Assembly (NCBI GenBank): GCA_033239525.1
Contig: BSYO01000023.1
Location: 100,600 to 164,599 of the forward strand
Reading direction: 5' to 3'
Length of the DNA stretch: 64,000 nt
Origin: Nepenthes gracilis
Taxonomy: Eukaryota > Streptophyta > Magnoliopsida > Caryophyllales > Nepenthaceae
The translations under genes and the position numbers were made by a program. The notes under the pieces are model-generated. The model had not been told where the DNA came from. It searched no databases and saw nothing but the letters and a program-made list of their open reading frames with translations. This document shows positions 18,967-44,222 of this stretch, piece by piece. Every line of letters begins with the position of its first letter. The first letter of the stretch is position 1.

Positions 18967-21900
18967 GAACCTGCTGCTGGGGCTCTTTTTGTCTGGGTCT
19001 TGCTCCTGAGACCCTGTCTCTGATTGTAGGCCATAATCAACTTTCGTGCTATTGCATGCGCTATTGGCATGCTTTTTTGGATTGAATAATAAGGGGGTTT
19101 GCCCTTCTGCTTTTCGTAAGGAATTTGCTGTGGTGAGAAGTTCTGTGGTTGTATTGTTGTTGTTGGCACACAGCCGCTTCTCTGCTGCTGGCCTCTGATT
19201 CTGCTGGTGTATGTTGGAGACCTGTTGCCCAAGTATTGATTAGTTTGCTGAGCTGGTCTCTGTTTCTGATGGGGCATGCTGCTGGTTCACTCGTGCTGAG
19301 GTGTTGGGATGCATGGAAGCTGGTTATTCTGGCTGATGAGAATCCAATGTGGATGTTGATTTCTCATGAAAGTGGTGTTAACTGCGAATGGCAGTTGCTC
19401 CTAATGATGGATGTATACTGATGTTGTTGCATCCTGTTGAGTGCTGTACTATGCTGGTGCTGTCGTCCTGATGTTGTCCAGCTGATGGAGACTTTGAATT
19501 TTGGACCTTTGCTCCTGGGAGCCACTTTCGATGCCGTTGCTTTTGATGGTGGTGGCTGTTTTGGAATGTCCTGCAAATGCCGCGTTGAACTGATGGCGAG
19601 CTGTTGTTTCTTCCCCTGGTAGTGGCGGATACAATTAGCTGGGAATGGTTTGATGACTGGCGCGTTGCTGTACCTGCTTGGATTGCTGTTGAGGCAGGTC
19701 CCTGAATTGTGGATGGCTGATAGTTGCTGATGCTGTTTGGTGCACTGTCGGCTGGTGATCTCCTGCTATTGATCGTTGCTGATCTCCTGATGTTTCTTGT
19801 AGTTGTCATAGGGTGCTGTTATGAGGGGCTACCTCCATTCTGCTATTTGCGGAACTGCTGGGAGTAGTAGTTGTCTTGGTTGGCTGCGGTTCTGGCTCTA
19901 GGTGGCTGAACCGCTGTGAAAAACGCAATTGGCTGCTACCCAGCATTGAGTCTGATTGCAGCATGTTGCGGTGGTGACTTGATTTCTTATGATGCCTGTT
20001 TCAAAGAATGTATTTGGAATGGTGCAGAATACCGGGCTCTTTGTCTTGGAAGGCAACTGATGTCGGTTTCCTTGCTTCTTCATACTCACTTCCTGTGCGG
20101 TTTGCATGGATTTGATAAGCTTTTTTTTTTTTTTGGTAAGTAAATGGATTTGATAAGTCGTGCTTTTTCTTCTTTGGAGTTGCAACTCTGAAGATACTCT
20201 TGGCTGATGTTATTAGTTGTTGCTGATTTGGATGACCTGGATATGGATGCTAGCTAACCTGGTTCCATTTGGTGACTTGGATGTACGAAGGCTGGTGGAG
20301 ATGACAAAGTCGCTATTGTTTCCATAGCTATTGTTTCTATTGTTTCCTGTTACCCTGAGGTGGGTTTAGTCATGTTGTTCTTTTTTGGAGTCAGACATAG
20401 TGTGCTGGAGTGCTCTTCCTACATGAAGTGACGGTTGTTGGGTTTGCTTGCTTCTGATGGTGGGAATTGGATTGAGCTTCTGGCCTGGATTATATGCACT
20501 CGGCTGTTCGATTCTTTGTCCTCTCCTCGTTGTTAGTCTTGATGAAGAAGCGGCTGCTGTTGCCTCTCTATTGGATGAGACCCGTGTTTGGATGTACTTC
20601 TCTTGGCCAGATTATACTGTGGTTGCTATTGTTGGTCTCGGCTGTGGGGGCCTTGGGCTTGCGAAACGATCGTGATCAAGCTCCGCTGCCTTCGAGATAC
20701 ATCTTTGGAGCGGGAGCCAGTTAGTTCCGCTTCGATGTGAGAGTATAGGGTATGAGGCTGCATTCTTGTTTTTTTGCCGGTGATGCCATCACGGAGCGTT
20801 TCTTTTGCATTTTCTATGTGGAGGGTTGGATTTGGGATTGCTTCTTTGGTTGTTCGGATTTAACTTGCTGCATGACTTCATGGCTGAGTTGCCGCCGCAT
20901 TAGTCATTAGCATCCCTGCTTTGTCATGAGGTGGTGTGCTACTAAAGAATGATGAAATTGCCAATTGCGGTCGGGTGAGTTAAGGTTGAATGGAATGCTA
21001 TTTCTTTGTTCTCGTAAGCCCGGTGGTTACCATGATGGCAAATGGGTTCGATGGAGCCAATTGTATTTTTGGGAGCATTGGAAACAACTGGCAAAGACTC
21101 GGTCCTCTTTGGAATCGATGCAGTATTGTTGCACCACTTGCTCTATACTTTTTGGTCTGGTGTTGTGATGCTGCTCCTGGTTATGCTGTCCAGGGTTTGC
21201 TGGTTTACTGGCTCAGAATTTGCCGGTTGTCAACTTTGATATTTTACAAGCTGTGGATCATTTGAGATGCTGATCTGCGTTACATCTGTAGCCGTTACTG
21301 TTGAAGATGATCTTTAATCTCGCTGCTTTTCTGTTTGGCTCTCTGAGATGGATCTGCTGTGGATTTTGGAGTAAAATGATGACGCCCAGTACCGCTCTGC
21401 CATGAAGCAACGTGCTGATCTGGTTTCCTGTGCTGAATGTGGTTGTTGCCTGGAGAGTTGCTGAGCTTGTATAGGTAGCTGATGGGTCTGGACTATGTGT
21501 TCTATTTGGCCGGTCCCCTTTTTTTTGTTGAACTCTACTAAGACTGTTCGTGGTTGATGCTGGCCTTGCTGATGTAGCATCGTTTCATCATCCGGCGGGG
21601 TTGGGCCTGTGTGTGGTCGTGGAATTGAGCTGGATGGCTCCTGGAGGTCTGGGCCGAAAGCGTCCCGATGAGCTGTCTCGTGGCTGGTTCATCGGTGTCG
21701 GTTAGCGGCCTTGCTTGAACTTTATGAGGGATCGTGGTTGTTGGATTTCTTTGAAGATGAACCTCTGCACAATTCCTGAAATTCCTCGCGGTTGGATGCG
21801 AGCTGTTGCTGGTGATGGGGAGGTGGTAGAGCTGCAGACGCCTATTGCCTCTTGGTTTCTTGACATTTTCTACTGGGATGCACAATTTCTACCTCGGCTA

Positions 21901-22285
21901 TGAAGTAGTGCTTGTGTTCTATTTGCTGGAATGTGGTTCTTTTTGCTGTGGCTTGGTATGTCTGGTGTTCAGTTTGCCTTGAGTTTGGCTGATGTGCTGA
22001 TTATCCTCCTAGGTGCGCGAGGCTGTTTTTGTCTGCCCCGATGCAAATGAAGGGCTGATATGCTTGCTCTCCCATGGTGACTTTGTGAAAATGATGTCAT
22101 TCCCATTTTCTGATTTTGTGGTTGATTTCTAAATGTTTTTTTTCTTTTGATGTACCAGTTGCTCGGGGAATGCCCTAGCACTTTTTGTTTTACCTCTAAG
22201 TTCAATACTTGGAGCTAAAACATTTAGTCTGTAAATTTTTTCTCCCATTAATCCAAAATTCTTACTTACCAAAAAAAAAAAAAAA
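18967..22285 (+). repeat. Non-coding 3' body and terminus of the half-LINE
   Basis: 3.3 kb without supported genes, rich in TGCTG/GTTGCTG words. At 22160-22285 stands the conserved 3' domain: TTGCTCGGGGAATGCCCTAGC, hairpin, TTTTTTCTCCCATTAATCC, CTTACTTACC, A15. A tail-only insertion lies at 20120-20143. Confidence 0.7.
20120..20143 (-). mobile_element. Tail-only insertion, 24 bp
   Basis: The insert is C, a T-run, then GGTAAGTAA: the poly(A) tail plus nine bases of the element's 3' end, antisense. Direct repeats ATGGATTTGATAAG at 20106-20119 and 20144-20157 flank it (14 bp, perfect). This is what target-primed reverse transcription would leave if it stopped just after the tail. Confidence 0.8.
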
Positions 22286-22564
22286 GTGATTTTCTATGTT
22301 GCTGCTGGTCATTGTAGCGCCGGCTGTTCTGGGATGCAGTGGGTCGGACCCGCTGTTTTGTGATGTAATACTTTTCATTTTCTATAGGGTCTGTAGAACG
22401 TTGGTCTCCTAGAGGTCTGTTTTGTACTTCCGGATGTACTTGTCGCTCGGGGTATGCTCCAGCGGGTTATGTTTTACTCCCAAGTCAAAATACTTGGTGA
22501 TAAAACATCGAAATTATAATTTTTTCTCCCAATAATCCAAAATACTTACTTACCAAAAAAAAAA
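22286..22564 (+). mobile_element. 5'-truncated 3'-end fragment of the main family
   Basis: 279 bp lying directly after the poly(A) of the half-LINE and ending in its own conserved domain: GCTCGGGGTATGCTCCAGCG, hairpin about 22472-22510, TTTTTTCTCCCAATAATCC, ACTTACTTACC, A10 at 22555-22564. Contains the upstream CTCCTAGAGG motif. Flanking duplication not identified. Confidence 0.6.
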
Positions 22565-23444
22565 GTCCCCCTAGTGCCTATTTTGAAGGCCTCCGCTTGT
22601 TAGTGTGTGCCACTTCCTCTAAGTCCCACATAGACTCCTTATCTCCTGATTGGATGGTGTTTATATTAGATTCTCTTAAAGTCTTGCTAAAATGGAATCC
22701 GGTCTTTCCATCTGGTCATTTTAGCGATCTGGTCGGTCTAGTGGAGGGCCTCCAGATTTTCTGATTGGCCGGTGTAGCTAGCTGCCCTGTTTTTTCTGCT
22801 AATGTGGTTTTGTTTGAAAGCTGCTGATTAGAATTATTAAATCGCTGGAAGGGCTCTCTATCATGTGATGCACTGCTCTGCCTTTGGAAGCTGAATGCAG
22901 TGGATCATGTCCATCTATCCCCTGCTTTTGGTTTTGTCAATGGTTGCTGCGGGCTTTTACTGTTGGCCCTGATGCAGCTGTAACAATGTTGTGCCACTTC
23001 TCCGGTCCCAGCTGATGCAAATCCTGATATTGGGAGTACTCTGTCTGTTTCTTGTGGATGCAACCCGGAAGCATCCATGGATGTAGAAGGTTGATGGTAC
23101 CCTCTCTGATGGGTTGTAATTCTGGAGATTTTTGTTCCATTTTCACCAAGCCGGATTGGGTGTAAAATGCGGGAGGGCCTATTGATGTCGCTGAAGCCGA
23201 TGTGATGCTTTGCCTCTTGTTATTCTTTGGTTGTTTGGAGTCTCCTTCATAACTTTTGATGCTGCTGCTGATGCTGATCGTGCCATGTATATGGGACTGG
23301 TTTGCTGGGAATGAATATGTATTCCTGCTGATCGTGTGGGGTCGATTTTGACTAGGGTCGATTTGACTGAAGTGTGTTGTAGGAAGGATGACTTCTTATG
23401 CTGTATTTTGTCTCTTGGAGGCATTGTAACTGGATTGCTGGTTT

Positions 23445-24002
23445 TTTTTTTTGGTAAGCAAGTATTTTGGATTAATGGGAGAAAAAAATTATAATATCGA
23501 TGTTTTATCACCAAGTATTTTGACTTGGGGATAAAACATAACCCGCTGGGGCATACCCCGAGCAACCAGTACAATTGGAGGTACATGATAGACCTCAAAG
23601 AGGCCAACGTTCAACAAAATCTAAAAATTTTAAAAATTACACCATAACAGAGAGGAGGCACCGCAAATCAATCACTGACAACCCGAGTCCACCAGCAAAG
23701 AAGTTTACTAGCAGCATCAAGCTTCGAACCCACAGGCCGATAACAACTCGGCACCATCGGCACGAAGAACACCCAAACAGCAGCCTTGCCATCCACAACA
23801 GGACCTCACCGTTGCAATAAAAATACCTCAACCAACAACAGCAGTTCCTGGTCAAGTAGCTCCTTGCAGCTTCAGCTGCCACTCAGATTGGTAATCAAAA
23901 TTGCCGAACCAACAACAGCATCAAAGCACAGTCCGCCATCAGATCAGACAGCAACATCCACGAGTTCATCATCAGGTCATTTAGCAGGTAAACGATTTAG
24001 AG
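23445..24002 (-). mobile_element. 5'-truncated main-family 3' fragment, 558 bp
   Basis: Starts with a T-run and GGTAAGCAAG, conserved hairpin, and the CGCTGGGGCATACCCCGAGC block, then about 400 bp of CAGCA-rich body. TSD GGATTGCTGGTTT at 23432-23444 and 24003-24015 (13 bp, perfect). Confidence 0.85.
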
Positions 24003-24198
24003 GGATTGCTGGTTTGAATTTGTGCCCCTGTTGTTGTGCAGGGCTGATTAATGGGCTTGATACCCAACGCTGGAACCTGAATTTCTTCCACCATGATGTC
24101 CCAGTTCTCCCTTGGTGCTGATGGGAGTTGATAACAACACTCTTCGATTGTATTTTTAGTTTTCATGCTTTGGCTAATAGTCTTAGTTTATGACTTGG

Positions 24199-24267
24199 AG
24201 ATAAAGCATTGATTTTGTAAATTTTTTCTCCCATTAATCCAAAATTCTTACTTACCAAAAAAAAAAA
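24199..24267 (+). mobile_element. Terminal-fragment insertion, 69 bp
   Basis: Carries only the last 3' bases: from AGATAAAGCATTG through TTTTTTCTCCCATTAATCC and CTTACTTACC to A11. TSD CTTAGTTTATGACTTGG at 24182-24198 and 24268-24284 (17 bp, perfect). The 5' truncation point falls within the 3' arm of the conserved hairpin. Confidence 0.85.
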
Positions 24268-25603
24268 CTTAGTTTATGACTTGGTCTTAAAGTTTGGGGT
24301 TCACTCCCTTGTCGTTGTTCTAATTCCCAAGTCGGCAAAACACTTGGAATTAGCACAAATTTTGTACCTTTTTTTAAATTTAATGCATTTACTTACTTAC
24401 CAAAAAAAAAACGATAGTAGAGATCCTGGATCTCGTACTTTCCGGAAGCTGGATCGTGTAATGGTCAATGGTCCTAGGCATTTGGAGTCCCCCTCTGTAG
24501 CCTCCTATCCTCCGGCTAGGCTCTCGGACCACTTCCCTTGCATTCTCTACCCCCATTCCCGGAAGCCCCTATAAGCTGGAAATTTTCGGTTCAACAACTT
24601 CCTTATTCATCATCCCAATTTTCTCCCCATTGTTCGCCAATGCTGGGAATGTGGCATTCAGGGCGTTCACATGTTTCGGTTCGTCTCTAAACTACGCCTT
24701 CTCAAGGGGAAGATGAAGGAATTAAATCGAAACTTGGGTAATGTTCATGAGGAGGTCGCCCGTGCGCGAGCGTCGCTCGAGGGCTTCCAGAGGTTGTGTC
24801 TTCCCTGGCCCTCAGCTTGGAATTAATGAGGAAGATAGGTTGAAAGCAGATTATCGCAGAGCCTTGCGTACTGAACTTGAATTTCTGCAACAAAAGGCGA
24901 AGATTCAATGGTTAAAAGATGGAGACTAGTGCTCAAATTTCTTCTTCCGTTCCATTGCTGGCAATCACAACAGGAATAGGATTCTCTCCCTAACCAAAGA
25001 TGATGGTTCTCCAATCTGCAGCTTGGAGGAAGTTCAACATCTCTTGATCAACCACTTCTCTCATCTCTTGTGTATCGGCAGATCGGGAGAGTCTTTCTCT
25101 AAGGAGAACCTCCGTCCTTTTATCCTCAAATCAGTCCCAGATTCCCTGCGGCCGTCCCTCTGCTGCCCCGTCTCTGCTGACGAAGTCCGCCTTGCTCTGT
25201 TCTCAATTGATGATAATAAAGCCCCTGGCTCGAATGGTTTCTCTACAAAATTTTTTAAAGCGGCTTGGAATGAAATTAGTGACTCCGTCATTGAAGCTGT
25301 TCAAGATTTTTTCCATCATGGAAAAATCTTGAAACAGATCAATGCGACCTTGATCTGCTTAGTGCCGAAGATCAAATCCCCTACAAGAGTCTCGGACTTC
25401 CGTCCCATTGCGTGCTGCAATGTTATCTACAAAATCATCTCTAAGATCCTGGCTGGGCGCCTCCAAACCTCGCTCCCTACCTCATTGGCAATTGCCAACT
25501 GCTTTCGTAGCTGGTCGAAACATTGGAGATAATATCCTGCTTGCTCAGGACTTACTCCATAAATACCACATCAATAAAGGGGCTCCCCGTTGCGCGCTTA
25601 AAG

Positions 25604-25642
25604 TTTTTTTTTTTTTTTGGTAAGTAAAAAAAAAAAAAAAAA
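25604..25642. mobile_element. T-run / GGTAAGTA / A-run insertion replacing 14-15 bp of ORF2
   Basis: Inserted between codons for ALKV and FDSIHWDF of the reverse transcriptase: T15 (25604-25618), GGTAAGTA, A-run to 25642. The homologous LINE has codons for a DFLKA-like stretch here, so 14-15 bases are lost. No direct repeat is visible. Flanks AAAG and CTTT can pair, so the unit is nearly a hairpin. It resembles the palindrome at 46782-46871. Confidence 0.7.
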
Positions 25643-25687
25643 CTTTGACTCTATCCATTGGGACTTTATTCTGGCCGTCCTTGAGTT

Positions 25688-28127: not shown

Positions 28128-28322
28128 TGGCCGTCCTTGAGTTGATGGGTTTTCCTCCCACATTGATCAGCAGGATAAAACAATGCATCACTACCACCTC
28201 GTTTTCCATCAATTCGAATGGTACTTCGGTAGGATTCTTCCGTGGCGCCAAAGGCCTTCAGCAGGGGGACCCTCTCTCCCCCTATCTCTTTGTGCTTGGG
28301 ATGGAAGTCCTGAATGGGATCC

Positions 28323-28849: not shown

Positions 28850-29100
28850 GTCTTGAATGGGATCCTGGATAGAATGGCAAAGACCAATCCGGAATTCTAG
28901 TTCCACTGGAAATGCAAAAACTCCCGTATTGTGATGCTTGGGGTTTGCTGATGATCTGCTCCTGTTCTCCAAAGCAGACTGCAATTCAGTTCGTGCTATT
29001 AAAGAAAGTCTTAACATTTTCAGTAGCCTTTCGGGTCTCACCCCTAACTTAGATAAAAGTGAGATCTATTGCTGTTCTGCCAGTGAGGATACCATCCAGG

Positions 29101-29142
29101 TTCTCCCTATAATCCAAAATACTTACTTACCAAAAAAAAAAA
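29101..29142 (+). mobile_element. Terminal-fragment insertion, 42 bp
   Basis: Contains only TTCTCCCTATAATCC, AAAATACTTACTTACC and an A-run. TSD GAGGATACCATCCAGG at 29085-29100 and 29143-29158 (16 bp, perfect). Truncated downstream of the hairpin. Confidence 0.9.
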
Positions 29143-30717
29143 GAGGATACCATCCAGGGCATTCTTGACATTCTTGGTTTCAAACGTTGGAATCTTCCTG
29201 TCAGATATCTTGGCGTCCCCCTTCTCACCACGAAGCTTTCCATCTCGGACTGCAAGCCTCTCCTCGATCCAATTCAACTGATAACCTCTTCATGGAAGAA
29301 TTGCTGGCTCTCATTTGTTGGAAGATTCCAACTTATCTCCTCCATCCTCTCAAATATCCACACCTTCTGGGCCTCCATGTTCATCCTCCCCAAAACCATT
29401 CTGAACTGCATTGACAAATTCTTCCCTCCTTTCTATGGCACGGCTCCTTTGAAGGAAGATACTCTGCAAAAGTTACCTGGAAGGATGTTTGCACCCCGAA
29501 AAGGGAAGGGGGATTAGGCCTTAAAAACCTGTGTGCATCCAATAAAGCTCTTTTGAGCCGTCATTTATGGAGAATCATCTCTAAGAACACTGACTCCATT
29601 TGGGTTTCCTGGACTCATACCCACCGGATCAGAGACCGTTGCATATGGACCATAAAAGTTCCCGATTCAGCCCATTGGAGCTGGAAAAAGCTGATGAAGC
29701 TCCGGAATGCTCTCCGCCCCATGATCCGATATGTTATTGGAAATGGAGTGGACACTTTCTTCTAGCTTGACCATTGGCATCCATTGGGGCCGCCTGTGAT
29801 CGTTTTGACTCGCGGATCAGGTGTATCATTGGACTGCCCCTTGATGCAAAGGTAAAAGACATCATCATTGACGGTAACTAGAGATGGCCTAACCCGTATG
29901 ACATGGAGGTTGCGGAAATTGTAGACAGTATACCGCCCTACGCCCCTGACCAGTCCCGCAGTGATGGGGTTCTCTGGACTACTGACCGCTCCGGGATGTT
30001 CACTTCTAAATCCGCGTATGGGATCTTTCATGGGGCCAACGAAGCGGTAGTTTGGTCTGATCTTGTCTGGGGCCCCATTCTCATTCCGGCCCATGCCTTC
30101 ATTCTTTGGTTGGCAAAAAGAAATAGGCTAAGCACTCTGGACCGGATTAGCAGATTCCTTCACTGCTCAGTGAACTGTGTTCTCTATTCTAATGGGGTTG
30201 AAAGTCATAACCACCTTTTCTTTGACTGCCCATTCTCCTTGATTGTCTGGAGTCTCATGCGCCAGAAGGCTGGTCTTAATTGGCCTTACCCTGACTGGCA
30301 CTCAAATATTCTGTGGGCTGCCAACAAAATGGAAAGGTAAGACCCTCAAGGCTCGCTCCTACAGGCTCACTCTCGCGGCCTCTGTTTATTTCATCTGGAG
30401 AGAGCAAAACAATCGAGCCTTTAAGGATTCTGCGTGTAGCGAAACCTAGCTGGCTTACCTGATCACAAATGCGGTGAGAGCAAAACTGGAATTATCCCAT
30501 CTTACTGAAGCCCATAGCGACAAATCTATTTGGAGCAGATGGAACATCGCCCTTGCGGTTTTGAGATCGGGCACAGTCATCTGATCTTGATGTGGTTTAT
30601 TTGTCCTTGACCTGAGGAATCCGGCATTCGGAGTGTTTTGCTGCTTTGTCCCTGTTTTTGGGAACTCCGGAATCCAGAGTTTCCTGTTGCCGGTTCTGTT
30701 TTTCTCTCTTCCTCGCG

Positions 30718-31160
30718 AAAAAAAAAAAATCTCCTCCCTCACTTTGGTTTCCCTGTAATCCGGAGCTCTTTTCTCTTTCGGACGGAGTGCCTGGATGCCA
30801 GAGCTGTTTTTTTTCATAAAAAAAAAAATTTTGCTTTGGTTTCTCTGGAATTCGGAGCTCTTTTCTCTTTTGGGCGGAGTGCCTAGAAGCCGGAGCTGAA
30901 TTTTGCTCTTTCTCCGGACGGCACACTTTTTCGTCGTGCCTCCGTTTTCGTCTTTTTCTTTTCCGGAGTTTTCTCCTCCAAAAAAAAAAAATCCCCATCG
31001 CTTTGGTTTCTCTGTAATCCGGAGTTCTTTTCTCTTTGGACGAAGTGCCTTGAAGCCGGAGCTGATTTTTGAAAAAAAAAAAATCCCCTCGCTTTGGTTC
31101 CTCTGTAATCCGGAGCACTTTTATCATTTGGGCGGAGTGCCTAGATGCCGGAGCTGAATA
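30718..31160 (+). repeat. Degenerate tandem repeat of about 95-160 bp units, each with an A-tract
   Basis: Four units. Each runs from an A11-A12 tract (30718, 30818, 30980, 31072) through CTTTGGTTTCTCTGTAATCC, GGAGCTCTTTTCTCTTT, GGACGGAGTGCCTGGATGCC and GGAGCTG. The second unit is longer by an extra CCGGACGGCAC... stretch. It lies early in the type-2 3' body, just after ORF2. Confidence 0.75.
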
Positions 31161-31161
31161 T

Positions 31162-32224
31162 TTTTTTTTTGGGGTAAGTAATTAAATGCATTAAAATATT
31201 AAATAAAATGTATAAAAAGGTTATGGCCTTAACTCAGTGTTTTTCCAACGTGGGGAAAGAGACATAGTAACAGGGGAGGCCCCCAGACTAATGACATCCG
31301 TCATTAAAAAATAAGATTACAATAATATTCGGTCCTTGTAAGAAATAAAAAAGCGAATGGCCAAAGTGAATGAAGAATCACCCTGCCACTAAAGAGAAAG
31401 CACTCCATCTCCAGGAGGCCACATCGCCTCAAAATGCACTCCGTCTTCAGAAACCACACCGTCCTCAAAAGGCACTCCGGCATTGAAATGCCACTCCGTC
31501 CTCAGTGCATGCAAACCACGAAAACCACTCCGGCCTTTTAGTGAGCAAAAGGCACTCCGTCTTTATAAGCCACTCCGGCCTCACGCGGCACTCCGGTAAC
31601 AAGAGGCCAATCACTCCGGATTCACTCCGGCATTAAACGGACAAAACAGAAACGATCCCTCTTCAAAAATACTGCTCCGCCTCAAAATGCACTTCGGCTT
31701 CAGGCCACTCCGTCCACTAAAGGCATTCCGGATTGAAATGCCACTCCGCCCATATCACACGCAAGCCACGGACCGACCAAGAGATCATCACTCCAGCTAG
31801 CAAGGAGCACAAGCCACATCATCCTTCCATTTAGTGAAACAAAATGACTCCGAAAAAAGCTCGGAAAGAGAACCGATTTTTTAAGAACCGGGGAAAGTTG
31901 AGCCGACTTAAAGAGCACCAGAAAAAATAACTCCGGAGTCAACAAGCCACTCCGTCCGGATTCCAAAATGCAACGTTTATTATTATTATTATTTATTTTT
32001 TTTTGGGGGGAAGAAACTCACTCCAGAGTTCAAAGACCTCAACAGAGACGGAGCTAAACCAGCAGCTCCGGATACGAAACGCACAGACTCCGGAAGCAGA
32101 GCCCACTCCGCCATCTCTTTTTTTTTTTTTTTTTTTGGAGAAAACGACTCTAGAACTGAAGTTCTCAACAGATCCGGAGCCAAAACAAACAGCCCCAGAT
32201 ACTAAACACATCCAGAACTCTAGA
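31162..32224 (-). mobile_element. 5'-truncated type-2 LINE 3' fragment, 1063 bp
   Basis: TSD ATGCCGGAGCTGAATAT at 31145-31161 and 32225-32241 (17 bp, perfect). 3' end: T-run, GGGGTAAGTAATTAAATGCA, the reverse of the type-2 terminus. Interior rich in CACTCCG, with internal T-runs near 31998 and 32118 matching the A-tracts of the type-2 body. It inserted into a sister copy of its own 3' body. Confidence 0.85.
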
Positions 32225-32370
32225 ATGCCGGAGCTGAATATTGCTCTTGCTCCGGAGTGCTTTTTAGTCGTGCCTCCGTTTTCATCTTTTTTTTCTGGAC
32301 TTTTCTCCTCCAAAAAAAAAAAAAAACTCTTTTTATTGAGGTGGCTGCTTCGTTTCAACTCATTTTAGTC

Positions 32371-32393
32371 TTTTTTTTTTTTTGGTAAGTAAA
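32371..32393 (-). mobile_element. Tail-only insertion, 23 bp
   Basis: T13, GGTAAGTA, AA. TSD AACTCATTTTAGTC at 32357-32370 and 32394-32407 (14 bp, perfect). Confidence 0.85.
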
Positions 32394-33694
32394 AACTCAT
32401 TTTAGTCGGAGTAATTGTTCCAAGCTTCTGGTGTGATCTTTTTTCAAAATATCTTCTTTGTCTCCTTGGACGGAGTAAAAACTCATTTTGCCAGAATGAG
32501 GTGGCTGATTGTTTACCTCAATTTGGGCGGAGTGTTCTGTTCCAGTGTGCTGTCTATGTCTCATCGGACGGAGTGCTTGTCTCACCTTGGAATGGAGTGA
32601 AACTGCTCTAATTGGTCAGAGTGATTTTGCTCGGGATTCCGTTGTGTGCTTTATTGTCTCCAAGGACGGAGTGCTATTTTCTCACTTGGACGGAGTGCAA
32701 GCTTTTCATTTATTCGGGAATGCTCCTCGTCTCCATGGTCGGAATGTAATAGCCGGAGTGGGGTGAATGGAATGCTCACCTAAGTTTGGACGGAGTATCG
32801 TTGTTAGAGCTTCTGGAGTAAATTTTTCGGAGTGCTTTCATTATCTCCTTGGACGGACTGTTCTAACCCACCCTGATCGCCGAGTCTTGCTATCTTTAGA
32901 CGGAGTGTTTTTGCTCGTCCTTCCCATGCCATTTCTGTCCGTCTTTTTTAGAGGCCGGAATGGCATGTTGAAGACGGAGTGCGTATTGAGGCCGGAGTGG
33001 AATGCCCTTTGAGGACGGAGTAGAATTTGCTGGAATGCCTGTACACACTTAAAAGCAGGAGCTGGTCTTTTTGTATTGAAGCCGGAGTGTCATTTTGATA
33101 TCGGAGTGCCTTAAGAGGCCAGAGTGGCTTCTTGATGCTGGAGTACTTTTTGAGACTGGAGTGGTTGGATTACAATAATTGAACATTATTGTAATTTTCA
33201 ATGGTTGTTGTCATAGGATTAGGGGTCTCCCCTGTTTTATGTTCCTTCTCCAAGTCGGTAAAACACTTTGTTATGAACATAAATTTTGTACATTTTTTGA
33301 AAAAATTTAATGCAATCAATTACTTACCAAAAAAAAAAATTTTTTTACTACGGCCTCATCATAAATATACTCCGGCCTCAGCAAAACCATGCCATCCGGC
33401 CTATTAGTGATCATAAGGGACACAGAATTCAAAACCGTGCAATTCCACTCCGGCCTTTGGCGAGCATATAGCGCACCGGCCACAATGTTGCCTTTTTTTT
33501 TTTGAAGCCACCAACCCCGTCCGGGATGCACCATCGGATCAAACCCGATCTTTCTCTACGGGCATCCGCACCATGAGAAGACATACTCAAAGCCACTCCG
33601 TCCTGAAAGTGCAAACTAAGGCACTCCAGCCACCAAGCCATCAGCAATATAGTAACCAACATCAGCATCAGTCACTCCAGCTACCAAAGAAAGC

Positions 33695-34177: not shown

Positions 34178-34649
34178 CAGCTACCAAAGAAAGCACACCA
34201 AGCAATCCATCCAATGTCAACTAGAAATCCGAATGCAAGTTTGAACTCTGAATGTTCCATCTTTCCATAATCTGCCTGTCCTGCACTGTAGCGGCACTAT
34301 GGGATGCCTCTATCTTCCCCCAGACTGCCGTAGAAATCTGGGTAACCATTTGGGTTTCGTTAAGCGCCCTCGTTTCCTTAAACATACGATGATTCCTCTC
34401 TTTCAAGATAAAATAGATGGAAGCAGCAAGGGTGAGACGGAAAGAGTATACTTTGAGGTTTTTGCCCTTCTATCGTTTTGCTGCCCACAAGATGTTTGAT
34501 TTCCAATTAGGGTGAGGCCAGCTATACCCCACTTTATGGCGCATTTGACGCCAAACAGTCGAGGAAAAAGGGCAATCAAAGAAAAGGTGATTATGACACT
34601 CCCTTCCGTTTGGACAGAGTATACATGACGCAGGAATGTGAAGGTAATT

Positions 34650-36194
34650 CTACCGGACGTGTGCCTCCCCCACCCAGGTTCGATCCCCCGCGGAAGCACC
34701 AAGTGGTACTGTGCCTCCCAAAAAATCCCGCAAGGGGTTTCTGGGTTATGGGGCCGCGAGTGCGGTGGGGCCAGTCACTATAAAATGTTTACCTTTAACA
34801 CAGTAGCCGAAGCAGAATTGGCCTGGTGGTTAAACACACGGACGTGTGCCTCCCCCACCCAGGTTCGATCCCCCGCGGAAGCACCAAGTGGTACTGTGCC
34901 TCCCAGAAAATCCCGCAAGGGGTTCTGGGTTATGGGGCCGCGAGTGCGGTGGGGCCAGACACTATAAAAAGCTTACCCTTATTTAATTGAGCCTTGATGT
35001 TGATGGAAAACTTAGTGGACATGATGCTGTATGCTGCATCAGTCCGATTTCTTATGTTGATTCTGATGCTGTTCGGTCTGAATTGCATTTTGAGGACTGT
35101 GATTGCTGGCTATCATAACCATAGGTGGGACCTGGTCTTGTTCTGAAGCTCTCCTGTGTCGGTGCTGCAATCTGTGTGGGGTGGCTGCTCTGACTATGCG
35201 CTGAATCGGTTCCCTGCTGGGGTTTGGGGAAGTTACTCCTGGGTTGGTGGATGTGCGGCTGGTTTGATTGGGCTGTAATCTGCGTTAGCCGATCCCATTG
35301 GTGTGTTCTGCAATGCCTGCTGCCAGAAATGGATTATTGGCGGTTGTATCTGCTGCCTGCTAATGGGGTAGTGGATGCAGAAGGCTTTCTAACTGCTGCC
35401 TTCGGTTTGTCCGGGGGATGCTGCCTCTTTGTTTCATGAATATGTTGGATATGCTTCTTGCTGTGGTGCGTTCCTGAACTGGTGTTATTGCCCCTGAAGT
35501 TAGAAGCAGGGGGAATGGCAGTTTTTGGAAGGCAGAGGATGAATTGGCTGCAGTTGCAGTCTTGCTGATGATGGTGTCTCCCGTGGGTTGAGTATGCAGG
35601 AGCTGGTTTGCTTGCATGTTTCAATTGCCCACATGAAGCTGTAATTGGCGTTGCACTGGGTGTGGCTGCTGTCTGACGCTGCAACTTGCTTTTCGGTTCT
35701 GATTCACATCGTGGATGCTGATGGTTGGGGACTAGATATCCTCCTGTTGCCTTTTTGTGCTGCTGAACTGCTGCCATATGGGAAGTCCACAGTGACTTTG
35801 AAGTAGATTGCTTTGGTTTTGTGGAGCCTTGGAGCCAAGGTTTCATTTATGTTGCTGTTATGTTTACATCAGCTGAATGTGGTACCGACTGCTTTGCCAT
35901 GTCACTGTGCGATGCTGGTTATCTGTTGGCTGTGTTCAGTATTGTTTACGATGGAAATGTCGTTTTTTGTCGTTTTCGGTAAACGTTGTCCTCCTAGAGG
36001 CCATTTTGTATATTCAGATGTACTGTCCGCTCGGGGTATGCCCTAACGTTTTATGTCTTATCTTCAAGTCAAAATACTTGGAGATAAATATATTATTTTG
36101 TACTATTTTCTCCCATTAATCCAAAATACTTACTTACCAATAAAAAAAAAAAAGCTTACCCATAACACAGTTTTTACTTTCCAAAAAAAAAAAA
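34650..36194 (+). mobile_element. Head-to-tail SINE dimer, interrupted by a retroposon fragment
   Basis: TSD GAATGTGAAGGTAATT at 34634-34649 and 36195-36210 (16 bp, perfect) encloses the unit. Monomer 1 (34650-34805) lacks its 5' end including box A but keeps box B GGTTCGATCCCC. It ends in TTTAACACAGTA without poly(A). Monomer 2 (34806-34978 plus 36151-36194) is complete, starting GCCGAAGCAGAATTGGCCTG. It is split by an insertion and ends ACTTTCC-A(n). The single TSD shows that both monomers arrived together as one RNA. Confidence 0.85.
34979..36150 (+). mobile_element. 5'-truncated main-family element in the SINE dimer, about 1.17 kb
   Basis: TGCTG-rich body ending with CCTCCTAGAGG, CGCTCGGGGTATGCCC, hairpin at about 36048-36090, TTTTCTCCCATTAATCC, ACTTACTTACC and A-run. 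Flanking AAAGCTTACCC at 34968-34978 and 36151-36161 is the TSD (11 bp or slightly more; edges blurred by the A-run). Confidence 0.8.
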
Positions 36195-36526
36195 GAATGT
36201 GAAGGTAATTGCCAATCCTATCGAGAGTGCTAAACCTTTGACGGATAGCCAGCCAGAGAAGAAATGTGTGAGCCGGGATTGACATGGGGCCTCAGACAAG
36301 GCTAAACCACTGCACCACGCCTTTCGGTTCTCGGAAAAACCCATAGGCAGATTTTGAAGAGAAGACCCCACTACGGTCGGCAGTCCAAACTACCACATCA
36401 TTGCGAGCTGGATCGGGGAGATATGAGGCATGTTATTCAAAATCCTAGCAACCTGCATATCAAAAGGGTTTGGCCATTTCCAGTCGCTGTTTTTGATATT
36501 TCCTTAACCTTAGCATCTAATGGCAA

Positions 36527-36537
36527 AAAAAAAAAAA
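36527..36537. mobile_element. Pure oligo(A) insertion between short direct repeats
   Basis: A11 between two copies of TAATGGCAA (36518-36526 and 36538-36546) inside the type-2 ORF2. It looks like a retroposition event that copied tail only. Replication slippage is an alternative because the duplication is only 9 bp. Confidence 0.5.
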
Positions 36538-37112
36538 TAATGGCAATCCAGTAATACACCTAATTCTCCCGTTAAATCTGTCATGAAGCAGACCGAGAGG
36601 ATGCTAAGATCAAGCCAAAGGAAGGTGTCGCCTCCGTTACCAATATGATGCTGAATCTTAGTGCGAAGGGTAACACAGAGCTTCATTAGCTTTTTTCAGC
36701 TCCACGGGGCAGAATCTGAAACTTTGATGGTCCATATACAGCGGTCTTTGATACGATGACCGTAACACCATGCGACCCGAATGGAGTTCGGGTCCTTAGT
36801 GATAATCCTCCAGAAATGACGGGCTAGCAAGGCTTTATTAGAAGCGCTCAAGTTTTTTATTCCTAACCCGCCTTCCTCTTTAGGGGAGCACACATCAGAC
36901 CAGGCAACCTTTGTGGAGGAGAGACCAGCAGAGGATCCGTGCTACAAAAATGTACGAATGGATTTTTCAATGCATTTTAAGAAGGCTTTTTGAAGGATTA
37001 ACAGGGAGGCCCAGTAGTGGTGGATTGTGAAAAGTATGGAGAAAATCAATTGGAGCCTACCCGCAAGGGAGAGCCATCGATTCTTCCAGGAGGAAATTCA
37101 TTGATCAACTCT

Positions 37113-37225
37113 ATCGAGGAGCCATCAATTTTTCTATTTTTTATTTTCACATGGCGTGGATCTTGGCCTCAAATTAAGACTCTCATGTATGTTGGGGTAC
37201 TCCCCTTGGTCTTTGCTCTAATTTT
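37113..37225 (+). mobile_element. Partial type-2 3' terminus
   Basis: GTTGGGGTACTCCCCTTGG and TTTGCTCTAATTTTAAGTCG match the start of the type-2 terminal domain (compare 24290-24335). It breaks off before the second hairpin arm and tail. The remaining bases before it are T/A-rich with nothing recognised. Confidence 0.45.
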
Positions 37226-37483
37226 AAGTCGCCTCCCCTCCTTCTCGTCTCCCTGAATCCCTCTCCACCCCTCCCCCTGTCGACCATCCTCCCTCTATTC
37301 TCTCGGCTCCCTCTTCTCCACCCCTCCCCCTATCGACCATCGATTCTTCCTCATCCTCGTCCGCCGCTTCCCATCTCTCCTCTCCACCCTCTGAGCCCGA
37401 TTTCCCCCCCTCTCAGTGCCGCTAGCTTCCGTAGCATTCAGAGGAAGTGCCCCATCTCCATCTCTGGCTCTGCCCCCCTCTCT

Positions 37484-39503
37484 TTTTTTTTTTTGGTAAG
37501 TAAGAATTTTGGATTAATGGGAGAAAAAATAGTACAAGATAATATGTTTATCTTCAAGTATTTTGACTGGAAGAAATAAACATAATACGCTAGGGCACGC
37601 CCCGAGCGGAAAGTACATCTGAAAAAAACAAAACGACCTCTAGGAGAACATAGCCAAAACGACAAAATTGACAATTCCATCGTAACAGGATTGAACATAG
37701 CCAACACATTAGCAACAGCTCATAGTGGCATGGCACGGCAGTCAGAACCACCTTCGGCTGGTGAAAGCATAACAGCATCAACACAAAAGGAGCCTGGCTT
37801 CACGGCACCACAAAACCAATGCAATTTGCCACATAGTCATGGAGGACTTCCATGGACAGCCGTTCAGCAGAACAAAACGGCAGCAAGAGAAATTTGAGCC
37901 ACCATCCATCAGGCTCCACTGTGAAACTGAGCCAGATATGCAGCAGCCATTCACAGCTTCATCTGGGCAATTGAAGCACACAAGCAATCCAGCACCTGCC
38001 AACTCTTTCCACGGGAGTCAGCATACCACCACCAGCATTGCTGCAACTGCAACCGAATTAAATCCTCTGCTCCCACCACAGCAAGCAGAATCCAATGCTG
38101 AACACCAGCTGTTCACACAGGCAGCTGCAAAGAGCCCCTGCCGAAAAAACTCAGGAGCAGAACCAACAGCATCAAAAGTATTCATGGTCTTGCCAAAGCA
38201 GCAAGATGACGAAAGAAACAACTCATCAAACCCATTGCACCCAAAGGGCACTGCTGTTCACCGTAGCCATAGAAGTGCATCAACCAAACTTCCAACAGCA
38301 CAGGAATAATCCAAAGTCCCACAATCCCATACGGCCTCAGCAATAGCAGCAGTAAAGACCGTTGCAGCAGGCCATAACACATTAGATTCAAATTGGTGCA
38401 AAGAAAACACCATCAGCTAACTGGCTGAAATAGCCAGACACATACAATCCAAGGATTGCAACACTAAACGCCACAATACAGCAGCAAATCAGGCAGAGCA
38501 TCACCTTAGCATAGGAAGATCCTTCAGCAACCGAATGGCACAATATCCAGCTGTTCAGCCATCAGCCGGAATTTCCAAGTCCATAAGCACATGGGCTCCC
38601 CCAACCCAATCAGTAAGTGGGAAAAAACAGCCAGGGCAGTGAGCAACATCAATGACAATTCGGCTGCATCGCTATCTTCAAGCCGAGACAACATCCCACC
38701 AGAAAGTTGTTGCCAAGCAACAACTTCAAATACTAACTGAGAAGCCAGACACTAGCATTCCAATGAAATGCAACACGATCACCAAAATAAAGCAGCAATC
38801 AGGAAGGCGTTAAAGCACCTCAACATCAGCACCCACCAAATTTAGAATTTGGCCGGTAAACCCGACTGCAGCAGATCCTCAATCCCCTGCCAATAACAGA
38901 AAAAAATCCCAGGAAGCCAGAGGAAGCAGCTCCCGAAGTCACAGCTCAGAAAGATCAGAGGCCTCCAACAGATCCACGGCCGGCACATTAGGGCGTCAGC
39001 CAAGCATCACCCAACCAGGCATCAGCACCTCAGAGCCAGCACCAGGACTTCCGAGAGCCCATCCCAATCTGAAAGTAGTGAACAGGCAAGAGAGTACCCT
39101 AGGTGCAAACCAAGGATACAAGGAAACGAGCTGGAGAGAAATGCGTGGGCTCAAGGATGGGCGACGACGCACTCTCAGCGGCCATAGGGCCCCAGCCACG
39201 AACTCTTCGCCCGAAGAAGAACCATCGCCACACACAGAGGGCGAGAAAAGATGGTCAGAAACGCCAGCAATCCAAATCGCAGCCAACCTCGAATTCGTCG
39301 AGAGCATGGAATCCGGGTGACGGAAGGGGGGGCCGGGCAAGCAACTGGGAGGACGACCATGGCCGGCACCGGAGCCGCCCGGCGCCCAAGTTGGGATCGC
39401 CGAGGACGACGCCGAGCAGATTCAAATTCAAAATCGAATTTTGAAAATCGCCTGTCAGAGCGACGTTGTCAGAGGATGTTGTCTCGCTAGGAGGGGCATG
39501 TTT
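37484..39503 (-). mobile_element. Full-length non-coding retroposon (copy C), 2020 bp
   Basis: TSD of 16 bp with one mismatch: CTCTGCCCCCCTCTCT at 37468-37483 and CTCTGCGCCCCTCTCT at 39504-39519. 3' end: T-run, GGTAAGTAAG and hairpin domain. 5' module at about 39330-39450: CCATGGCCGGCACCGGAGCC, then the AATTCAAAATCGAATTTTG palindrome-like stretch. CAG-rich middle without a shared ORF. Confidence 0.87.
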
Positions 39504-39600
39504 CTCTGCGCCCCTCTCTGCTTCCCCCAACCATCCTTCCACCCAAATCGCGTCTTCCATTTCGGCAGGTGTTTTTTTTTGGTAAGTATTTTGGATTATC

Positions 39601-40171
39601 AGAGATAACCGATGGGCCTGGCCTAATCCTTTTGATCAGGAGGTTTCTAGCCTCGCCACAAACATGCCCCATTATTCGCCCAACGATGAGCATAAAGACT
39701 CTTTGAGATGGGTTGGTAGCTCTAACGGTGTCTTTTCGTCCAAGTCTGCCTACCTCCTTTTCACCCGCCGAAGCCGAAATTGAGCTGGACTAGACTTGTC
39801 TGGGGTTCTTTCCATATTCCTGCCCACGCCTTCTCCCTTTGGCTGGCTATAAAAGGCCGGCTTAATACCTCCGACCGTGTTCACGGTATTCCCAACCTCT
39901 CCCTCACTTGTTCTCTCTGTGATTCAGACGTTGAAAACCATACATGTGGAAAGGTAAGAACCTCATCGCCCTCTCTAAGCGTCTCTCTCTCGCGGCCACT
40001 GTTTATTATATTTGGAGAGAACGAAACAATCGTATTTTCGAGAGTTCATCCCATCAGGATGCTTCCCAGATTTGCTCCCAAATTTCAAATGTTGTTCGAG
40101 ACAAACTGAAGACCTCCCTGCCTGGTGTTGGTCGCCCTAACCGCTCGCTTGTCATACGATGGAACTTATAA
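39601..40171 (+). pseudogene. LINE ORF2 C-terminal fragment with zinc-motif deletion
   Basis: Encodes ISDNRWAWPNPFDQEVSSLA-like sequence, WGSFHIPAHAFSLWLAIKGRLNTSDRVHG, CSLCDSDVENH, then after a jump WKGKNLIALSKRLSLAATVYYIWRERNNRIF, ending IRWNL at about 40170. Compared with 8585-8705, about 100 bases are missing after GAAAACCAT, deleting the HLFFSC half of the zinc-binding motif and shifting the frame. Confidence 0.8.
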
Positions 40172-42304
40172 AAAAAAAGAAAAAAAAAAAGCAGAAGGCA
40201 GGGGGTGATCCTTTTTGCTGTTTTTGAGGCTGCTGTCCCTTTTTGTGAGCTATTGGGGACTCTTTACTGTGGTGGCCTTCTGATGGTGCCCTGCCGGGGT
40301 TGGCTCCCCGCTACCCCATCTGTTGTTGTTGATCCTTCTGGTTGCTGCCTCCCGGCTGCTTTTGGCTCTCGTTCCCGCCTTGGGAGCTTTGGTTGTATTT
40401 CCCTCAAAAAAAAAAAAAAAAAGGTTCCCCATGATAGAAGAAAAAAATGGCTTCCCGAGAAAAGAAAAAAAAAACAAAAATTTCTAGAATTTGGTTCTTG
40501 GTTTTTGCTGCTGGTCTATGGTTGCTACTGATTTTGCAGGCTTCTCTTGCTTCTTTGGTGCTTACTTCATTGGATTGGTGCTGATCCCTTTTTAGTGGAG
40601 TTTTGGTGTATTGGAATGATTAATTCTGCATGGGTGTGGATTGGGGTCACTGTTTTTGGCACTTCATTGGATCCGTTGAGACTTTGTTGATGTGGGTTAT
40701 AGAATTGTGGTAGTATCCAGGATTGTGGTCCTTTTTTCAACGGATAGGTGCTGATTTCTTTTTGTGGCTACGTCGTTTGGTCTAAGCTGATGCTGCTTTG
40801 GGGAATGAGCTGGTTAAGCTTGGGCAGAATGGTTTCTGGGGGTAACACGGGATATGTGCTGATTATTGGGTGACATGTGCTGCCACCGGTATTTCCTGAT
40901 CTGATGTTGTCTCTGCCAGAGGGTGTATTCTCTTGGGATGCTGCATCTCTGCTTCTGGGCATTTTGGATTGGATGATTGCTGGCATGGTTTGGAATTGGG
41001 TCTGGTGTGAATAATTTAAAGCTACTGATGTTGAGGCTCGGGTGTCTTTGGATTTGTTTTGTTGGCCCGATGCTGATGGGTGTGCAGTAGTGTTGCTGCT
41101 ATCAGGTATGGGGCTGAAACTCCTGTCGGCTTCGATTTCGGAAGATTTGCTTCTTGGCTGTTGGGGCTGTTTGTAGTGCTCCAAAGCAATCAATTAGTAT
41201 GCTCTCTCACGGTTATACTCTCGGTTCATAGCCTGGTTGCTGCATGATGCTGCAGATCTGCTGAGGCCCGTGCCTGTTGTCCTTTGGTTTGAAGCTCAAT
41301 TTTTCGGCTGCTGATGAAATGTCAATGGTCTGTGCAACGTTTGAGGCAGCTCTTTGATTGTTGTTGCTGGTTTTTCTTGGAACTCTATTTTGTTGCATTG
41401 CCTCCTTGAGTATTGTCATGGGCTGAACTCCACAATCAATTTGCGGATGGGTGTGTCTTTCCTGCTGTTGGTGGTGGTACTGCTGGCCTGCATGGACACT
41501 CATGCTGGTGCTGGGTGCGATGAGGAGTTGTGATGCTGTTGGTTTTGCTATGCTGGTTTTGGATGCCTTGGTGCTATGGTGTGAGGAGTTTTGTTGTAAG
41601 TGTATACTGATGAAACCCTTGGTCTGTGATGCGGTGTAGATGCTGATGAAGTGCATAGTCCTTTGTTTACTGGTTTGCTCAAATGCTGTCCTGTTTTGGG
41701 GCTGTAAATTGTACTGTCCCTGAACTCGACTTTTATGCCCCCGGATTTGTGCGGATATTTTCTTTTGCACTACAGCAACTGAAGGCTGCTGTTCGGAAGC
41801 TGGTCTTGCTGTGTTCGAAACCTGTGTGCCTGCTGTACAATCTGTTTCTGCCGGTGGGTCTGCAGTTCGGCCATGTGCCTGCAGGGTGCTTGTTGAGTTG
41901 TTGCATCTCACGCTGACCTTAAGCTTCGAGAAACCGGTTGGGATCTCGCTACACATGCGGTTGACCTTGTAGATGTTGATGTGCAGCCCTCTTTGCGGCT
42001 GGTGTTGGATGGGCTGTTCTTGTATTTGGTATCCGGCTGCTGTGCTCTTACGTGGGCATATGAAAGGCGGGCCGGTCTTGCAGAGATGGTTTTTCTGGTT
42101 GCCTGCGGGCAATTTTTCTGTTTTGTTCTTCTGTTAGATAGTTCCTCTTTGGTTTTTTAAGAATTTTCTGATGTATTAGGTGCTCGGGGTATGCCCTAGC
42201 GTATTATGTTCGAACTCCAAGTCAAAAAACTTGGAGTTTTAACATAATTTTTTGTAAATTTTCTCCCATTAATCCAAATTACACACTTACTGACCAAAAA
42301 AAAA
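40172..42304 (+). repeat. A-rich linker and non-coding 3' body of the + LINE
   Basis: Begins with AAAAAAAAGAAAAAAAAAAG straight after the ORF2 stop, with further A-tracts at 40406 and 40440. A TGCTG-rich body follows, homologous in reverse to 58-2079 and to 42305-44589. The terminal domain is at 42175-42304. No gene seen. Confidence 0.75.
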
Positions 42305-43131
42305 GTATTTTGGATTATAGGGAGAAAAATATTACAAAATCTATGTTTTTACTCCAAATATTTTGACTTGGAGTAAAAACATAAACCGCTAGGGCATACC
42401 CCGAGCAACTAATACAACCGGAAAACATAAAAAAAGGACAAAAGAGCAGTCCTCTAGGAGGACAAACGATCAACATAAACTACAAAATATGGGTCCTATC
42501 TAAATATGGTTCAGCAAACTCAACATAAACTCTTCATGCATCAACAGTAGCACCAATAGGGGTCGGCATCGAGGCACCAAATCCATCGTGCAACACAGGG
42601 AAGTGGCAGTTCGAATGCCGAACCTCAGCAGCGCGAATAATAATCAGGCTAACGGCAACACTCCTTGTTTCGGTAACAGCAACATCAATCTCAGGCAACA
42701 GAACAGAAAAACACGTCCAAAGAAAGTTTCATACAAAAACGCCCCAGCTCACGCCTGAAGAATGTCAAAACCAGCATCAGAATCGTGGCACCCACACAGC
42801 AATGCTCAGACAGTCAACTGGAATTACATAAGGAAATGTAAAAGCACTGCCAGGTCCAGCCACAACTTGATTGTGGAGTTCAGCCCGTAACACCACTCCG
42901 GGAGGCAGAACAGAGTTCCCAGAAAACCAGCAACAATGAGCAGTTAGCTGCCACAACGGTGCATCAAACCAGTGGCATTTCATCAGCACCAAATTAATTG
43001 AACTTCAAAGCTAAGGACAGTAGGAACCGGGCCTCAACAGATTTGCAACATCACGCAGCAACCAGGCCACAAACCGAGGGTATAACTGTGAGAGAGCATA
43101 CTAAGCAGCACCATTGTTTACTTCGGTGCAC

Positions 43132-43344
43132 GCCGAAGTGGAATTGGCCTGGTGGTTAAAAACACGGAAGTGTGCCTCCCCCACCCAGGTTCGATCCCCC
43201 GCGGAAGCACCAAAAGTAGTACTGTGCCTCCCAAAAAATCCCGCAAGGGGTTTCTGGGTTATGGGGCCGCGAGTGCGGTGGGGCCAGTCACTATAAAAAA
43301 CTTACCCTTAACACAGTTTTTACTTACTTACCAAAAAAAAAAAA
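43132..43344 (+). mobile_element. tRNA-derived SINE, complete, 213 bp
   Basis: TSD GTTTACTTCGGTGCAC at 43116-43131 and 43345-43360 (16 bp, perfect). The tRNA-like 5' part has box A TGGCCTGGTGGTTAA (about 43144) and box B GGTTCGATCCCC (about 43188), giving an internal RNA polymerase III promoter. The tRNA-unrelated body contains GGGTTATGGGGCCGCGAGTG. The 3' end is TTTTTACTTACTTACC plus A12, the same terminal string as the LINEs, which implies LINE machinery in trans. It lies inside the 3' body of the - LINE. Confidence 0.92.
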
Positions 43345-43656
43345 GTTTACTTCGGTGCACCAAAAATAGCCATATCTACCAAGAAGCATAGCTACCGATT
43401 TCGGGGCCAGCAGCAGTTTCAGGCCCAAAACAGATAGCAACAGCACTGCGGCACACCATCATATAAATCAACCAAACAGCAACATAGAATAATGGACAGC
43501 AGCAGCAAGCCAACAAAACCTGTGGTTGAATCTCATCACCATCATACACAAGCAACATATCTCCACACATCCGAGCAACAGCAGTAGTAGCAATACTGCA
43601 GCAAATCTCAGCAAAACCAAAGACACCCGAGCATCAATAGCAGCATCTTTAATGTA

Positions 43657-43673
43657 TTTTTTTTGGTAAGTAC
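43657..43673 (-). mobile_element. Tail-only insertion, 17 bp
   Basis: T8, GGTAAGTAC. TSD AGCAGCATCTTTAATGTA at 43639-43656 and 43674-43691 (18 bp, perfect): the duplication is longer than the insert. One of the smallest possible products of target-primed reverse transcription. Confidence 0.9.
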
Positions 43674-44222
43674 AGCAGCATCTTTAATGTAATATGAGAT
43701 ACATCGTTAATTCACACCAAACCCAACTCCTTAACCTTACCAGCATCCTTCCAACCTTCCAATCAACTACCTCTGGCAGATACAATATCAGATCAGGAAA
43801 AAAACCGGGGGCATGCACATGCCCATCTGCAAAACCAGCCAAGCAGCGTATCGGATGGATCCAGAAGCATCCATTGGCAACCTGGTTTTAACGCAGCACA
43901 ATCAACAAACGGAATGAAATGCAGCACCCCTGAATCAGCATCCTACCCCACGCCATGCCACTGATATCATTGGTTTTCCATCATCAGCTCACACCCCAAA
44001 CAGCATCAGCAGAAACCAAACGAAGCTACCACAATACTCAGTTATCAGTACGCAGACAGCAGTAAACTCCATCATACCAAAACTCCACCTAACCATAAAG
44101 GAATCAGCACTTATCCAATGAAATAAGCACCACATTCCCTGGATACTACCACAATACAACAACCCGCATCAACAAAGTCCCAACGATCCAAAAAAATGCC
44201 TATATCAATGACCCCAATCCAC

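Follow-up and report, generated by a model that had tools for sequence, protein, structure and literature searches.

Why most copies of long interspersed nuclear elements (LINEs) are 5'-truncated is a long-standing question, and a 64-kb stretch of the Nepenthes gracilis genome bears on it. This stretch, C23:100600-164599 (contig BSYO01000023.1), is the window of the present analysis, and it holds five insertions that consist of a poly(A) tract and the last bases of an element's 3' end, enclosed by direct repeats. What kind of event leaves such tail-only insertions, or stubs, and where does the copying end? It is probable, at roughly 0.85, that the stubs are products of an L1-type plant LINE whose target-primed reverse transcription (TPRT) was arrested after a terminal block, TACTTACC, and that the end of the complementary DNA (cDNA) was either joined to the target or snapped back and copied it.

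Results

The five insertions of 17-69 bp had been proposed in an earlier note made from the letters of the window, and direct reading together with a motif-blind scan (exact direct repeats of at least 12 bp, spacers of 6-150 bp) recovered all of them at the same positions. On the minus strand, S1 (20106..20157, insert 20120-20143) reads TTACTTACC-A14-G between 14-bp repeats ATGGATTTGATAAG, S4 (32357..32407, insert 32371-32393) reads TTTACTTACC-A13 between 14-bp repeats, and S5 (43639..43691, insert 43657-43673) reads G-TACTTACC-A8 between 18-bp repeats. On the plus strand, S2 (24182..24284, insert 24199-24267) comprises 58 nt of a LINE 3' end and A11 between 17-bp repeats, and S3 (29085..29158, insert 29101-29142), located inside a LINE open reading frame 2 (ORF2), comprises 31 nt and A11 between 16-bp repeats. 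From S1 to S5, the inserts measure 24, 69, 42, 23 and 17 bp by direct reading, and the repeats, described before as perfect and 14-18 bp long, are indeed perfect at 14, 17, 16, 14 and 18 bp. The description of the inserts as poly(A) with 8 to about 58 element bases was right in general, but the counts had to be corrected to 9, 58, 31, 10 and 9, with one surplus base next to the A tract in S1 and one surplus G at the 5' junction in S5. The S2 duplication ends in ACTTGG, which in the alignment, judged by eye, are the element's own next bases.

The remaining window pairs of at least 14 bp are tandem-type repeats at 30.7-32.7 kb, SINE (short interspersed nuclear element) or tail copies matching one another, or pairs with spacers above 100 bp, and several further 12-bp pairs were found. 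The 20 first-order Markov (Markov-1) controls of the window yielded 0-3 pairs of at least 12 bp each and none of at least 14 bp. Irregular arrays of a CACTCCG-type repeat, which also yield many direct-repeat pairs, are present at window 30700-32700 and in the C23 stretches L017 and L026 (L-numbers denote sampled tail loci). A T12-A11 sequence without the tail block is found at window 49017-49039.

A paralogous empty version with a single copy of the repeat is present for S3. When the insert and one repeat were removed and the flanks joined, the 65-residue translation gave gap-free alignments with three further copies of ORF2 (49-52% identity); a fourth, degenerate copy aligned with one gap, at 34% identity.

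The same structures recur beyond the window. In the 752.5 Mb of genome scanned (133 contigs), exact TTTTTGGTAAGTA occurs 9,439 times, compared with 106 for the reversed pattern. In a contiguous 264-kb sample of C23 (the window and 100 kb on each side), one pattern detected 86 tails, of which 45 are flanked by exact duplications 11 bp or longer; in 16 of these 45, the insert does not exceed 109 bp. When this 264-kb sample was scanned without regard to motif, for repeats of 13 bp or more with spacers of 6-130 bp, 16 spacers proved to carry a tail, two of them in a variant form of the block, and in no case did a spacer have poly(A) but not the tail block. The scan also returned 84 other pairs, many in tandem-repeat areas; ten Markov controls of equal length gave 0-2 pairs of any kind each. 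Thus the direct duplication of about 10-20 bp that marks TPRT accompanies all five window insertions and the 16 spacers of the blind scan, and the poly(A) is preceded by the element's own 3' end. Contig 1 (C1) was sampled by the first 100 exact tails in its listing: 21 of them combine a tail-only insert with a duplication of 11 bp or more, compared with 38 of 19,620 swapped flanks (0.2%). Simple patterns recognised no body in 48 of these 100 tails; inspection by eye shows that these 48 include three hairpins, one or more SINEs and a small number of likely LINE variants. The first 17.17 Mb of contig 1 is poor in tails, and there those without a recognised body (34 of 48 sampled) outnumber the bodied ones, so that the element may have left its mark in this region chiefly as stubs. 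Tails of the form G-TACTTACC number 226 in the genome (12 in the reversed-pattern control), and in 20 of them on contigs 2-10 (C2-C10), hand-picked from the first 100 listed, an exact repeat of at least 11 bp lies within ~100 bp upstream in 11 cases, compared with 1 of 380 swapped pairs. The excess of direct repeats over controls, on which the earlier note had staked its reading, is therefore borne out in the 264 kb and in C1. Its suggestion that such events are a frequent product of one LINE held as to their recurrence in all three samples, but not as to a single source, since the tail block is common to LINE variants and to a SINE-like element.

The position of the stop was determined in a pool of 38 events (17 from C23, 21 from C1) with inserts of at most 109 bp, which leaves out longer inserts, duplications below 11 bp and hairpins. 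Element bases number 6-12 in 27 events (7-10 in 23), 13-29 in two and 30-91 in nine; for the 17 C23 events alone, the counts are 10 at 6-12, none at 13-29 and seven at 30 or more. The stop thus clusters at 6-12 element bases with no smooth tailing off. The frequent insertion of only the last 7-10 element letters and an A run suggests that the copying enzyme stops almost at once. An apparent dip in insert length at 60-470 bp (p=0.012 in the window) was dropped, because the wider sample holds inserts of 138-234 bp. An overlap between stub 5' end and target (16 of 38), which might indicate microhomology, was left unused, as eight reference ends had been tried and the chance expectation was not computed.

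Short and long insertions were alike in duplication length (p=0.66, from hand-entered lengths). T is the commonest base at nick position -1 (13 of 27 short and 9 of 18 long insertions) and G at +1 (15 of 27 and 14 of 18), in which counts any +1 A is not visible because the A tract hides it. Both kinds of copy therefore share an endonuclease preference with a T|G tendency. A comparison case in the window is a long 5'-truncated LINE insertion (53330..57065, minus strand) with 16-bp repeats and a nested copy inside.

A second class, absent from the earlier description, consists of hairpins of the form T(n)-GGTAAGTA-A(n) with an inverted copy of the target. The window example (46782..46871, core 46811-46842, plus strand) reads T9-GGTAAGTT-A15 between perfect 29-bp inverted arms. 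Exact T6GGTAAGTAA8 occurs 25 times in the genome and its reverse not at all. Nine of the 25 sites have inverted arms of 11-99 bp starting 0-3 nt from the T and A tracts, the only starts that the scan accepted, and the other 16 have at most 7 bp; random arm pairs reached a maximum score of 8 in 2,000 trials. The L031 and window 46811 hairpins were found with looser patterns, and the 11 hairpin loci are window 46782-46871, L031, L092, L096, L105, L108, L113, L114/L124, L115, L121 and L123/L125. At L105 and L115, direct repeats of 14 and 16 bp partly overlap and then pass the far end of the inverted arm, giving the order left flank, T(n)GGTAAGTA, A(n), inverted copy, repeat, right flank; this overlap is expected if snap-back comes before normal joining. 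L031 has a LINE 3' end as its target, and by eye the sequence becomes LINE-like again past the inverted arm. The direct duplications around opposed T and A tracts by which twin or dual priming is recognised do not characterise the hairpin class. Some double tails without long arms carry direct repeats, e.g., 14 bp at L112 and 11 bp at L070. The window double tail at 25604..25642 (minus strand; T-run/GGTAAGTA/A-run), inside a LINE ORF2, showed neither a duplication nor inverted arms, and its alignment with three ORF2 copies, judged by eye, suggests that ORF2 lacks ~14 bp at this point. Tandem tail blocks also occur within one repeat pair, with three units at C23R:8180-8272 (L019) and two each at L128 and L135, the last with a 10-bp repeat (by eye). 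They would fit either an enzyme that, at the end of one tail, jumps to a further poly(A) or a template in which the tandem was already present.

The source is classified from its coding sequence as a plant L1-type LINE, having DUF4283 in ORF1 and RVT_1 and zf-RVT in ORF2. The window is rich in LINE copies, and these domains lie on separate ones (four of five frames submitted matched): an ORF2 fragment with the reverse transcriptase domain RVT_1 at 12147..14048 (minus strand), an ORF1-like frame with DUF4283 at 52095..53369 (plus strand) and the C-terminal part of an ORF2 with zf-RVT at 60348..61163 (plus strand). The 120 of 4,713 reverse transcriptase matches that were listed have identities of 39-51%, and wherever the organism name is readable the protein is from a plant. 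The conserved stretch at the 3' end of 17 chosen LINE copies is TTTTTTCTCCCATTAATCCAAAATACTTACTTACC-A(n).

Two SINE-like elements share this terminus. One (43116..43360, plus strand, 213 bp), with a B box, lies between 16-bp repeats and ends in TTTTTACTTACTTACC-A12, and the other (44206..44444, minus strand, 205 bp) lies between 17-bp repeats and ends in CACAGTTTTTACTTACC-A10. The B box reads GGTTCGATCCC and the general end is TTTTTACTTACC-A(n), to which the match with LINE tails is limited in the window comparison. An A-box scan allowing three mismatches matched at several places, and an Rfam search of 43050-44500 up to E=1 gave no match for the element. Because LINE variants and this element have the terminal block TACTTACC in common, the template of a stub is sometimes ambiguous: S2 and S3 are assigned to LINE by their sequence, S4 is best fitted by the SINE 3' end (14 nt versus 9, although 4 of the 14 also overlap the target), and S1 and S5 could derive from either. 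In both SINE-like elements a T5 run stands immediately before the shared block. This run could serve as a terminator for RNA polymerase III (Pol III); if it does, the LINE-like tail might have been added by template switching. At window 34634-36210, a LINE-tailed insert (1,172 bp, 11-bp repeats) is nested in the 3' end of a SINE-like dimer, the first unit of which stops at CACAG, without the tail block. A U1-type source of the block, suggested by the complementarity of TACTTACC to a 5' splice site, was dropped because the listed stubs do not begin with ATACTTACC.

Discussion

The structures, the duplications, the frequencies in the samples, the paralogous empty site and the inverted arms were read directly from the DNA; from them we infer an arrest, its cause and an order of steps. 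An L1-type plant LINE would cut the target and prime cDNA on the poly(A) of its own RNA, of a variant or of a SINE RNA. In a large minority of events, synthesis would arrest just past the shared block (U)UACUUACC, ~7-10 nt beyond the poly(A), and the cDNA end T(n)GGTAAGTA(A) would be joined to the far side of the stagger, whether or not a few bases match there. The product would be a 13-31 bp insert flanked by direct repeats; stops at 14-91 nt would be fewer. Less often, the 3' end of the arrested cDNA, ending in A or AA, would fold back onto its own T tract and be extended, copying T's into A's and then the target strand, which would produce T(n)GGTAAGTA-A(n) and an inverted copy of the target. 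The idea that the cDNA stopped almost at once after TPRT, advanced before for the five insertions, is thus supported by the exact duplications, the S3 empty site, and the duplication lengths and nick shared with long copies. A more specific version, to which we give slightly less than an even chance, is a fixed early checkpoint of the reverse transcriptase past the shared block, escape from which would yield LINE and SINE copies and failure at which would yield stubs, tandem tails by tail jumping and snap-back hairpins.

Several results weigh against the arrest scheme. RNAalifold, applied to the aligned region of the 17 chosen LINE 3' ends, found no conserved structure or consensus pairs to account for an arrest, and the conserved 3' stem-loop of stringent-type 3' end recognition is likewise absent from this region. 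No paralogue spanning the site was found within the window for the flanks of S1, S2 and S4, and the S5 paralogue at window 1237-1712 has diverged at the insertion site. Inserts of 138-234 bp exist in the C1 sample, so that lengths are not strictly two-peaked; L082 and L084 among them share one duplication and resemble copies of one event. In 25 of the 48 bodiless C1 tails the repeat is at or under the 99% level of the null, 9 of the 20 C2-C10 tails have no exact 11-bp repeat, and 9 of the 11 hairpins have no direct repeat of at least 10 bp. Moreover, the C1 and C2-C10 search pattern requires TACTTACC, so that stops shorter than this block are invisible there and the lower edge of the cluster rests solely on the 264 kb.

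Other explanations also have to be considered. It is rather unlikely that the stubs are the extreme end of a smooth, random 5' truncation with no special stop. Truncations at 28-91 nt, LINE bodies of 0.5-4 kb and some intermediate inserts do occur in the same samples, but 27 of the 38 short events stop at 6-12 nt and just two at 13-29. Furthermore, if dropout is constant at the rate estimated from 12 longer events of the window (mean ~1.5 kb, hand-entered lengths, nested inserts subtracted), p is ~2e-4 for at least 3 of 17 events stopping within 10 nt; this test, like that of the length dip, was window-only and post hoc. The template might instead have been a stub itself, in the form of a polyadenylated RNA whose 5' end, made by cleavage or by initiation, lay immediately upstream of TTACTTACC and which was fully copied. 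The sharp 5' edge and the block common to LINE variants and the SINE-like element speak for this, whereas the 5' end varies by a few bases, as arrest and joining would predict, and no source of such an RNA is known here; we regard it as unlikely. Deletions are common in plant genomes, as is generally known, but if longer LINE insertions had later lost their bodies, dozens of independent deletions would each have had to end precisely at the inner boundary of the 5' repeat without damaging either repeat, which makes this history very improbable.

As for the hairpins, tails may have landed by chance in existing palindromes, to which the A/T-rich arm of L108 and the short inverted motifs seen by eye within LINE 3' ends lend some plausibility. 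However, the arms start 0-3 nt from the tracts (the only range scanned) and reach 99 bp, random adjacent arms score at most 8 in 2,000 trials, and the LINE-like sequence seen by eye on both sides of L031 suggests that only one arm was original, so that this origin appears improbable. Slippage of microsatellites with chance flanking repeats deserves hardly any credence: poly(A/T) tracts are generally known to slip, but the Markov controls yield almost no such repeats, the non-A block is almost constant, and exact TTTTTGGTAAGTA occurs 9,439 times against 106 for its reverse.

The arrest scheme agrees in part with known systems. Human L1 insertions made by TPRT have poly(A), direct duplications and 5' truncation, with microhomology and extra bases reported at their 5' junctions (PMC2912911, PMC4859970). 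The first three features are alike here, whereas in Nepenthes gracilis the stop clusters ~7-10 nt past the poly(A) and stubs form a large share of the sampled events. The nick differs as well, the T|G tendency (with +1 A hidden by the A tract) standing against the TT/AAAA of human L1 (PMC2912911). Truncated L1s with 5' poly(T) between target-site duplications, at 39 primate loci, were read as twin or dual priming (Meyer et al. 2010, PMC2837659), and these loci resemble the double tails in having a T tract on one side and an A tract on the other. Nevertheless, 9 of the 25 exact double tails are flanked by inverted target copies, which neither scheme predicts without a further step. In maize, ZmSINE2/3 and LINE1-1_ZM form a SINE/LINE pair with shared 3' ends (Ohshima 2013, PMC3747384), and the SINE-like element and the L1-type LINE share a 3' terminus here too; in the present case, however, only ~8-12 nt and poly(A) are shared and no conserved stem is predicted. 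Short insertions of the mouse L1 3' UTR (untranslated region) indicate that short 3' fragments can be recent and numerous, but the copies analysed genome-wide there were 100-400 bp (PMC11084082), unlike the present stubs. Extreme 5' truncation by TPRT and 5' poly(T) insertions are thus already known; the present case differs in its sharp stop, in the large proportion of stubs and in the inverted copies of the target. The literature searches, none of which targeted inverted copies of the target, listed no paper describing tail-only LINE insertions in plants.

Summarizing, the many arrested stubs, the sharp stop and the hairpin by-product form a natural record of the point at which the enzyme fails and of the fate of the stalled end. 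Stubs are probably missed by repeat annotation; they can shift reading frames, as S3 does by adding 58 bp to a LINE ORF2, and they could add splice donors. The T strand of the tails in the window and the sampled loci, T(n)G|GTAAGTA, is in sequence a near-ideal 5' splice site. If the checkpoint exists, the hairpins would preserve in vivo traces of a TPRT pathway that templates itself and writes an inverted copy of the host target into the genome, and the T strand would scatter strong 5' splice-site look-alikes.

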